A DNA stretch of 64,000 nucleotides. It comes from Paenibacillus sp. HGH0039. Lineage in GTDB: Bacteria > Bacillota > Bacilli > Paenibacillales > NBRC-103111. Shown piece after piece: positions 3,481-16,691 of the stretch. The translations under genes and the position numbers were made by a program. Within the stretch, counting starts at the first letter, position 1; each line of letters begins with the position of its first letter. The stretch is taken from positions 363,609-427,608 of the forward strand of contig NZ_KE150412.1 of NCBI RefSeq assembly GCF_000411255.1. Reading direction: 5' to 3'. The notes below the pieces were generated by a model, which made no database searches, was not told the origin of the DNA, and worked only from the letters and a program-made list of their open reading frames with translations.

Positions 3481-3717
3481 ATACTTTGCCCAGGCGTACG
3501 GCGTTTGCTCAAGGACCATGCGTGTTGGTAACCGCGATCATCCATGCAGCAGCGTCGGTGCGCTCCCTCATGGTACTCCATGTCTACGCCAGTCACACAC
3601 CGCTTACAGATTGTCATTATTTTACATGTGATAACTGATATTTTCAAGCATGTTTATGCAGAAGATCCGTTAGCTTTCACTCGCTTGAGACAGCGACCAT
3701 GCTGGGCGCACAACCAA

Positions 3718-15837: not shown

Positions 15838-15863
15838 GTCTTCTCCTTACTGCCGGAGAAAAC

Positions 15864-15893
15864 GTAAAAAAAGCAACCGTCAGTCGGCGCTTT
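15864..15893 (-). terminator. Attenuator 2: terminator just before cfr-like gene
   Basis: On the minus strand AAAGC-G-CCG / CGG-T-T-GCTTT folds around ACTGA and is followed by a T-run (15870-15865). It ends only 26 nt before the cfr-like ATG, so it is inside the transcript leader. A competing partner GCGCTTT (complement of 15921-15927) can pair with AAAGCGC of the terminator 5' arm. Confidence 0.65.
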
Positions 15894-15948
15894 GACACGT
15901 CGTTAACCAACTAGACAGAAAAAGCGCATACAGTTTGCAGATGAATCG

Positions 15949-16062
15949 CTATGTGCACCTGTCGATAGATGGGTAAACCTCCGGCAACCGAATTGTTTTT
16001 TTGTGAACCGCTTCACCTAACAAGAACCGGCTCACACAATCATCTACAACCTCGTTCTTCAT
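15949..16062 (-). CDS. 37-codon upstream ORF in cfr-like leader
   Basis: ATG at 16062 has a perfect AGGAGG (16077-16072) nine nt upstream; the peptide begins MKNEVVDDCVSRFLLGEAVH and ends at TAG 15949. It lies between attenuator 1 and attenuator 2. The strong ribosome site and position suggest a translated leader peptide whose elongation could influence folding of attenuator 2. It includes a segment able to form its own hairpin (GTGAGCCG with CGGTTCAC, one G-U pair). No homologue known to me. Confidence 0.6.
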   Translation of the reverse strand: MKNEVVDDCVSRFLLGEAVHKKTIRLPEVYPSIDRCT

Positions 16063-16120
16063 CGCTTTCATCCTCCTAGAAATGGTTGATCTCTTTCAGC
16101 TTTACATTCTTTGTCAAAAT

Positions 16121-16158
16121 AAAAAAGAGCCACAAGAAAGTTACCTTTCTTGTAGCTC
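16121..16158 (-). terminator. Attenuator 1: strong intrinsic terminator in cfr-like leader
   Basis: Minus-strand stem GAGC + ACAAGAAAG / CTTTCTTGT + GCTC (16158-16145 with 16140-16127, one mismatch), tetraloop, then TTTTTTATTTT. It lies about 170 nt after the predicted start of transcription and more than 280 nt before the cfr-like ATG, so transcripts stop here unless the hairpin is prevented. Confidence 0.85.
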
Positions 16159-16224
16159 AAAAAATACGGCACATCCAACCCTATAAAGGGTAGGAAAAGG
16201 ATCTATTTTTTGAGTGAAAAGAAT

Positions 16225-16300
16225 AAGGTAACTTTCTTGCCAATAAAGAATAAACCAAATTTTTGTTTTATTCTTTAAAAAGCGGCAAGAAAATTTACAT
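16225..16300 (-). promoter_or_regulatory. Antiterminator switch and AUG-UAA start-stop element
   Basis: Minus-strand CAAGAAAGTTACCTT (16239-16225) is perfectly complementary over 15 nt to AAGGTAACTTTCTTG (16147-16133) inside attenuator 1, so pairing them destroys the terminator. The same segment can instead be sequestered by TTTCTTGCC (16292-16284) pairing with GGCAAGAAA (16241-16233), extended by a 10-bp inner stem (16276-16267 with 16254-16245). ATGTAA at 16300-16295 ends two nt before the sequestering arm, so a ribosome held there would cover it. Confidence 0.75.
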
Positions 16301-16336
16301 TATCCTCTTCAACTCCGATCGTTAAGTGTCAGCACG

Positions 16337-16365
16337 ATCTTAACATGCCCGCTTCTACATTGCAA
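16337..16365 (-). promoter_or_regulatory. Promoter of cfr-like transcript
   Basis: Minus-strand TTGCAA (16365-16360), 17-bp spacer, TAAGAT (16342-16337). Predicted start near 16330, giving a leader of about 490 nt. It begins 12 bp after the stop of the YdeI-like gene. Confidence 0.65.
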
Positions 16366-16376
16366 CATCCTGGATC

Positions 16377-16691
16377 TTAATCATCCCGTAGACGTCCATT
16401 ATCATTCCATTGACCGTACATTTTGTTTTCTCTCGTGTTTGCTATGAATTTGTCTAATCTGCTTTCAACTAATTCCGGTTGATTTTTTATGCTTTGTATC
16501 GTGTCGATTCGAACTCTTTTATAAAGATCCGGAAATGCCTTGAAATTCTCATAGACTTGCTTTTCCTCTTTCAGCCTTTGCTCTATAACCGGATCGATTC
16601 GAAAAGAATCGTAATCCATCTTCCTATTTTCCTGCAGCCAAAACCTCAACTCTTCTCTCGATTTGACGGGAATTAAATGATCCATTTCCAT
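16377..16691 (-). pseudogene. YdeI/OmpD-associated family gene with in-frame internal deletion
   Basis: A 104-residue frame. Its first 24 residues (MEMDHLIPVKSREELRFWLQ) and last 75 (SFRIDPVIEQRLKEEKQVYE to the end) match the two ends of the YdeI-like family, usually about 190 residues long, but the middle, including the CWV and SPRSKKSSW core, is absent. The join is at about NRKMDYDSFRID. Reading frame is intact, so a shortened protein could be made, yet the conserved core is gone. No clear ribosome site; it follows the VOC gene by 17 bp and may be read through from it. Confidence 0.6.

Follow-up and report, generated by a model that had tools for sequence, protein, structure and literature searches.

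The locus in Paenibacillus sp. HGH0039 raises the question of how a leader RNA might control a gene for resistance to ribosome-targeting drugs when its upstream open reading frame (uORF) consists of a start codon and a stop codon. We addressed this question by analyzing a 64,000-nucleotide stretch of contig NZ_KE150412.1 (the window), for which an earlier note had described a mutually exclusive terminator and antiterminator before a cfr-like gene. That gene is a genuine cfr: its product exceeds the cut-off of the Cfr model and, with 268.8 bits against the RlmN model TIGR00048, falls under the cut-off of 290, and is thus distinct from RlmN. As argued below, the leader is very probably a ribosome-mediated transcription attenuator with a one-codon (start-stop) uORF as its sensor, in which arrest of the ribosome by a drug occupying the peptidyl transferase center (PTC) would lead to readthrough, and the switch would originally have been that of an ABC-F gene.

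All of the elements that had been placed from the letters, including ATGTAA, were found at those positions on the minus strand (table 1). The 15-mer CAAGAAAGTTACCTT is, as claimed, an exact complement of 16133-16147, a segment that takes in the loop and some of the 3' arm of the terminator, which is the sole terminator-like site in the region. The proposed holding hairpin is present as two stacked helices (P2 and P3), and it proved to be the inner part of a longer hairpin with P1 as the outer helix. P1, the conserved Shine-Dalgarno (SD) sequence GGAG, and an extended -10 promoter were absent from the earlier description. A generic consensus promoter scan of the region returned nothing, and the leader promoter came from the alignment, in which it was the top scorer within the 62 nt preceding the SD; the extended TG was present in 148 of 149 leaders, and the -10 ended 18-20 nt before the SD in 137 of 149. 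Just upstream of the promoter lies a 104-aa ORF (16377-16691, minus strand) without any NCBIfam match. Perfect inverted repeats in the leader reach 15 nt, whereas the longest one in each of 300 dinucleotide-preserving shuffles was typically 7-9 nt and reached 14 once. The leader MFE is -79.8 kcal/mol, compared with -37.3 +/- 4.2 for the shuffled sequences (z about -10). No Rfam cis-regulatory RNA or riboswitch scored over its gathering threshold in the leader, and sub-threshold miRNA matches were hairpin noise; elsewhere in the window, a ZMP-ZTP riboswitch (RF01750, 44.6 bits) was observed at 3481-3606 on the minus strand.

Table 1. Features of the cfr leader region in the 64,000-nucleotide window, in order of transcription.
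Feature	Position	Strand	Basis
Promoter: TTGCAA (16360-16365), 17-nt spacer, extended -10 TGTTAAGAT (TGnTAAGAT; hexamer 16337-16342)	16337-16365	minus	Leader alignment
SD GGAG of start-stop ORF, 12 nt before AUG	16313-16316	minus	Conservation
P1 (outer anti-antiterminator helix), 5' arm GAGUUGAAGAGGAUAAUGUAA, with part of SD, AUG, and UAA	16295-16315	minus	Pairs with 16212-16232 in free MFE fold
Start-stop ORF, AUG-UAA	16295-16300	minus	RTG plus TAA, TAG, or TGA in 139/149 distinct leaders
P2, 5' arm (holding arm of the earlier note)	16284-16292	minus	Pairs with 16233-16241
P3, apical hairpin AAAGAAUAAA/UUUAUUCUUU, arms 16267-16276/16245-16254	16245-16276	minus	Fold
P2, 3' arm GGCAAGAAA	16233-16241	minus	Fold
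Antiterminator strand CAAGAAAGUUACCUU	16225-16239	minus	Perfect complement of 16133-16147; pairs there once footprint is masked
P1, 3' arm GUUACCUUAUUCUUUUCACUC, highly conserved	16212-16232	minus	Alignment; served as search pattern
Antiterminator extension CUCAAAAAAUA (16204-16214)/UAUUUUUUGAG (16156-16166), enclosing a small hairpin	16156-16214	minus	Masked fold
Intrinsic terminator GAGCUACAAGAAAGGUAACUUUCUUGUGGCUC (16127-16158) and U-tract (16121-16126)	16121-16158	minus	-22.7 kcal/mol
ABC-F remnant between terminator and cfr, encoding KLKEINHF-stop	16076-16102	minus	Intact Lsa-type ABC-F of relative L057 ends ELKEINHF-stop
Second leader ORF, 37 codons (MKNEVVDDCVSRFLLGEAVHKKTIRLPEVYPSIDRCT; EVVDD...SIDRCT), with internal hairpin	15949-16062	minus	30/31 cfr loci
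Hairpin UUCUCC/GGAGAA sequestering cfr SD	15841-15860	minus	Sequence and fold
cfr, 23S rRNA A2503-C8 methyltransferase, 343 aa	14806-15837	minus	TIGR04432, 635.7 bits (cut-off 550)

By scanning a species-representative collection for the conserved P1 3' arm as a DNA pattern, we obtained 60 named loci, which fall in Paenibacillus, Cohnella, Brevibacillus, and Gorillibacterium. A covariance model (R1) built from the 5' domain of the leader matched 189 of the 395 genomes of the window's order, approximately half, and 45 of the 399 genomes of its class, where strong matches outside the order were confined to a few families; the genomes being a sample, both fractions are indicative. Altogether, we collected 149 distinct homologous leaders in Paenibacillus, Cohnella, Brevibacillus, and related genera; nearly all stand before cfr, an Lsa-type ABC-F gene, or the two together. 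Within the window's family, Cfr was observed in 31 of 104 genomes, and in 27 of these 31 the leader precedes cfr or an ABC-F gene that is itself ahead of cfr. No plasmid copies of the window's leader were found, and plasmid Cfr proteins were less than 60% identical. These comparisons indicate that the leader is a conserved RNA element recurring across Paenibacillus and its relatives; the 149 homologues, together with the z score, ruled out a chance structure or the plain terminator of an upstream gene.

The genes behind the leader are consistent in kind. An Lsa-type ABC-F gene and/or cfr lies downstream at 53 of those 60 named loci. Of the seven others, five end within 400 nt, and two (L091, where the leader is decayed, and L073) have neither gene. 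Among 19 lower-scoring order-level loci, 17 showed ABC-F or Cfr, one an interrupted ABC-F gene, and one was cut short, and ABC-F and/or Cfr was present in all 20 class-level loci. The ABC-F proteins of relatives score over the cut-off of the Lsa family model NF000167. At L073, in Paenibacillus alvei DSM 29, the start-stop leader is intact and a large NRPS-like gene follows some 800 nt downstream, but neither an ABC-F gene nor cfr lies within 4 kb. The ABC-F remnant behind the terminator indicates that the window has lost its ABC-F gene by deletion, which left cfr directly behind the switch. Other partial ABC-F remnants were observed in relatives L077, L094, L105, L115, and L119, and the remnants differ, which suggests that deletions placing cfr straight behind the switch occurred more than once. 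Judged from these arrangements, the leader originally served an Lsa-family ABC-F gene with cfr behind it, and in the window the switch now adjoins cfr. The same genome carries a second leader copy (G000:C2:1904048-1904170, L157) with a 7-codon uORF, MYTFLRA, before an intact Lsa-family ABC-F gene.

To characterize the uORF, we parsed the leaders as GGRG, 10-13 nt, and RTG, which gave the 149 distinct sequences. The start codon is ATG in 144 and GTG in 5, and 139 leaders are start-stop forms, with TAA (87), TAG (43), or TGA (9) as the second codon; the other ten have uORFs of 2-8 codons (MYISC in two, MDFSC in three, and MEFSC, MYNFSC, MYTFLRA, MWNFLANI, and GTG-AAG-stop). Since this parse presupposes RTG, the leaders were re-parsed using downstream anchors only, and the SD-spacing-RTG pattern was missing in just 3 of 138 leaders, two of which retain ATGTAA but have the SD arranged differently. 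The SD hardly varies (GGAG in 137, GGGG in 12), and its distance from the start codon is 12 nt in 126 leaders, 11 in 16, 10 in 4, and 13 in 3. The conserved GGRG-N10-13-RTG is thus predicted, from sequence only, to be a translatable uORF with a well-placed SD. The earlier note had regarded the poor spacing of the ribosome site before the AUG as a weakness; a spacing of 12 is indeed longer than usual, but the objection falls because the upstream GGAG is recognized as the conserved SD. The nearer AGAGG (spacing 3-4) was rejected as an SD because it is not conserved. L224, L160, and L238-L240 comprise GTG-TAG start-stop leaders and one neighbor changed to GTG-AAG-TAA, a two-codon uORF.

We then examined the predicted folds of 143 complete leaders, using thermodynamic folding in which co-transcriptional kinetics are ignored. 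The free RNA formed the 5' helix and the terminator in all 143 and the antiterminator in none, whereas masking from the SD to +16 of the AUG, as by a ribosome with the AUG in its P site, produced the antiterminator in 129 of 143; it failed to form in the other 14. Together with the perfect 15-nt complement, these folds bear out the mutual exclusion of terminator and antiterminator that had been read from the sequence. As the edge of the mask was moved in 72 leaders, the fold flipped in 6 at +0, 15 at +6, 18 at +9, 53 at +12, 60 at +14, 66 at +15, and 67 at +16, and footprints of similar size placed in P3 or further on flipped 0 of 72. In these models, the flip at +12 to +15 would coincide with the point that the leading edge reaches when a ribosome occupies the start-stop AUG; the initiating-ribosome toeprint was measured at +16 on the vmlR uORF (PMC9226507). 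The CUUGC of the P2 5' arm starts 11 nt past the A of the AUG in 118 of 149 leaders, inside the ribosome footprint. In the GTTACTTATT group, MAFFT had placed the P2 3' arm 1 nt out of register; pair counts from that alignment (A1) therefore misrepresent P2, and we relied on arm swapping and masking instead. The cognate arms of P1 scored -16.9 compared with -15.5 +/- 0.15 when swapped between leaders, and those of the antiterminator -20.3 compared with -19.45 +/- 0.09; both beat all 100 shuffles, with kinship not removed. Double compensatory changes were few (3 of 41 pairs).

Could AUG-UAA be a by-product of base pairing, in a switch driven without translation by a small ligand, a protein, or RNAP pausing? 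The OFF fold is highly stable, and within its helix P1 the GURR of the start-stop site is base-paired to GUUAC; positions 4-6 (URR) are paired there with G-U permitted, so that pairing alone could keep URR. P1 pairing therefore favors UAA, UAG, and UGA as well, and the two constraints on the stop codon can be told apart only in part: a UGG second codon was seen once, where about three would be expected were positions 5 and 6 independent. We accordingly rejected the variety of stop codons by itself as proof of coding constraint, and regard stop-codon identity alone as suggestive of a start-stop constraint. Pairing does not, however, account for the rest of the pattern. Although 97% of predicted OFF folds leave the first SD G unpaired, this G is nearly invariant, and the U of the AUG, unpaired in 80%, is retained (the underlying parse required TG); the conservation of both is thus unexplained by pairing alone. 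In addition, the SD distance is almost fixed, the AUG position also begins real ORFs of 2-8 codons (MK, ME, MDFSC, MDNFSC, and MYNFSC), masking to just +12 to +15 suffices for the flip, and the targets are ribosome-drug resistance genes. Taken together, these points make a switch without translation very unlikely.

The proposal that a ribosome at AUG-UAA works the switch is instead supported by the 139 start-stops among 149 leaders, the near-invariant SD, the flip at the footprint edge, and the target genes, which provide ribosome protection and 23S methylation. From this, we infer initiation at the AUG, drug-dependent arrest, induction, and the class of drug, as follows. Without drug, a ribosome would initiate at the AUG, terminate immediately at the UAA, and depart; the 5' region would then pair with 16212-16232 (P1) and 16233-16241 (P2), the antiterminator strand would be locked, and the terminator would halt RNA polymerase. 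The release of fMet from AUG-UAA complexes is the classic release-factor assay, and several PTC drugs block it. Initiation-arresting PTC drugs (pleuromutilin, lincosamide, or streptogramin A) would likewise block fMet release at the UAA. We proposed that, with the release factor unable to hydrolyze fMet-tRNA, the ribosome stays on the AUG and shields about 15 nt downstream, so that P1 and P2 could not form, 16225-16239 would pair with 16133-16147, the antiterminator would win, and transcription would proceed. We incline slightly to the further view that the start-stop ORF may be a dedicated, conserved sensor, reporting only drugs that inhibit peptidyl transfer as well as release-factor-catalyzed fMet release; it would be blind to tetracyclines, macrolides, EF-Tu and EF-G inhibitors, and amino-acid starvation, and the nascent peptide would be irrelevant.

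A translational sensor could also read the general status of termination or initiation, such as release factor shortage or slow recycling, and not the drug directly. In a start-stop ORF without an elongation codon, the dwell time is set by initiation and release alone, and single-codon or start-stop ORFs have been reported in ribosome profiling of E. coli and Campylobacter (PMC4909307, PMC11955535). The target genes, however, confer resistance to PTC drugs, and the start-stop label changes to or from 2-8 codon uORFs at least seven times on a tree of 58 ABC-F proteins, with three of the changes forced by well-supported branches; release right after the start is therefore not always the read-out, whereas start-codon occupancy can be. 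We consider this explanation slightly less probable than a switch without translation. Equally improbable is a longer uORF as the sensor, either an upstream ORF or TTG-AAG-AGG-ATA-AUG-UAA (MKRIM) right after the GGAG with AUG-UAA merely as its end, since the MKRIM frame, although the window and many relatives keep it open (NTG at -12), was rejected because its NTG has zero spacing from the GGAG and is replaced by CTG or GCG in L051, L092, L097, and L124, because the frame is broken at spacing 10, 11, or 13 (23 of 149) and by TGA in L052, and because a ribosome at the NTG would reach about +4 relative to the AUG, where just 12-15 of 72 folds flip.

The uORF thus varies readily in length but keeps its AUG, as would be expected were start-codon occupancy the signal. 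Class-level members outside the families of the order include MDNFSC, MDNLSC, MK, ME, and start-stop forms. The leader of the mobile lsa(E) gene (L274 and L287; Enterococcus plasmid NZ_CP023426.1), which precedes a gene annotated as lsa(E) at 100% identity, has the uORF MYNFSC and is present at no less than 99% identity on more than 100 plasmids; by its covariance-model match and shared elements (see below), it can be placed in this RNA family as a distant member. The 6-codon forms adjoin lsa(E) at the drawn root of the ABC-F tree, which is a midpoint root where long branches meet.

The start-stop switch is probably not the sole control of cfr, because a second conserved ORF and a hairpin sequestering the cfr SD follow it. 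The 37-codon ORF was present in 30 of the 31 cfr loci examined, with one frameshifted, and also where an ABC-F gene intervenes. The region 15841-16062 looks like a second layer, acting as translational control of cfr, and the gene would thus probably be under two controls.

If true, no translational sensor could be smaller than the start-stop ORF, and its switch would separate a ribosome held at the start codon from stalling by a nascent peptide; the interconversion of start-stop and 2-8 codon forms provides a natural experiment on the importance of the peptide. The leader precedes Lsa-type ABC-F and Cfr genes that are kin of clinically mobile resistance genes, and the deletion suggests a simple capture route, in which a resistance gene gains the switch of another gene when the gene between them is lost. 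A gap in uORF surveys is also exposed: the default minimum of uORF4u, which was used to find several published leaders, is three codons (PMC10219788), and a start-stop ORF would therefore go unlisted.

The switch is of a known kind, belonging with the ribosome-mediated transcription attenuators of ARE-ABCF genes such as vmlR and cplR. As in those systems, we observed a terminator between promoter and gene, an exclusive antiterminator held by an anti-antiterminator that contains the uORF, and a uORF with its SD; the ARE-ABCF target is present in relatives (Lsa-family ABC-F), and the window retains its remnant only. A sense codon after the start, a trait of the described attenuators that the mechanism may not require, is absent in 139 of 149 leaders. 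In Bacillus subtilis, the vmlR leader likewise precedes an ARE-ABCF gene and has a very short uORF (Met-Ile-Asn) within an anti-antiterminator hairpin (SL-1), an antiterminator competing with a terminator, and an SD-sequestering hairpin, and its induction by lincomycin needs the start codon and SD (PMC9226507); its uORF has three codons compared with AUG plus stop in the window, where the gene directly behind is cfr after the loss of ABC-F. Short uORFs also precede ARE-ABCF genes in the leaders of Clostridioides difficile cplR (MRI), VmlR2 (MK[L/Q]), and LsaA (MAGN), and that of cplR is sequestered in the repressed conformation (PMC10201436), but these have three or four codons. Start-codon or SD mutations abolish induction in both the vmlR and cplR leaders (PMC9226507, PMC10201436). 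In the Streptomyces are5sc leader (uORF MLV), the PTC drugs lincomycin, clindamycin, tiamulin, and pristinamycin IIA stall ribosomes at the uORF start codon (PMC12421871); this gene is an actinobacterial ARE5, and its uORF has three codons. The enterococcal lsa(E) leader is similar in SD, AUG, P2 arms, antiterminator strand, and terminator (34 bits against the covariance model) and differs in its 6-codon uORF and an SD spacing of 7 from GGAGG. No start-stop antibiotic sensor in bacteria was found in the open-access literature searched. Regulatory ribosome stalling on an AUG-stop in a 5' leader is described for the AUGUAA of Arabidopsis NIP5;1 (PMC11915504), a non-homologous eukaryotic system that responds to boron and acts on mRNA decay. 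Relative to the known ARE-ABCF attenuators, the new element would thus be the predicted start-stop sensor itself, which lies below the three-codon default of uORF4u.
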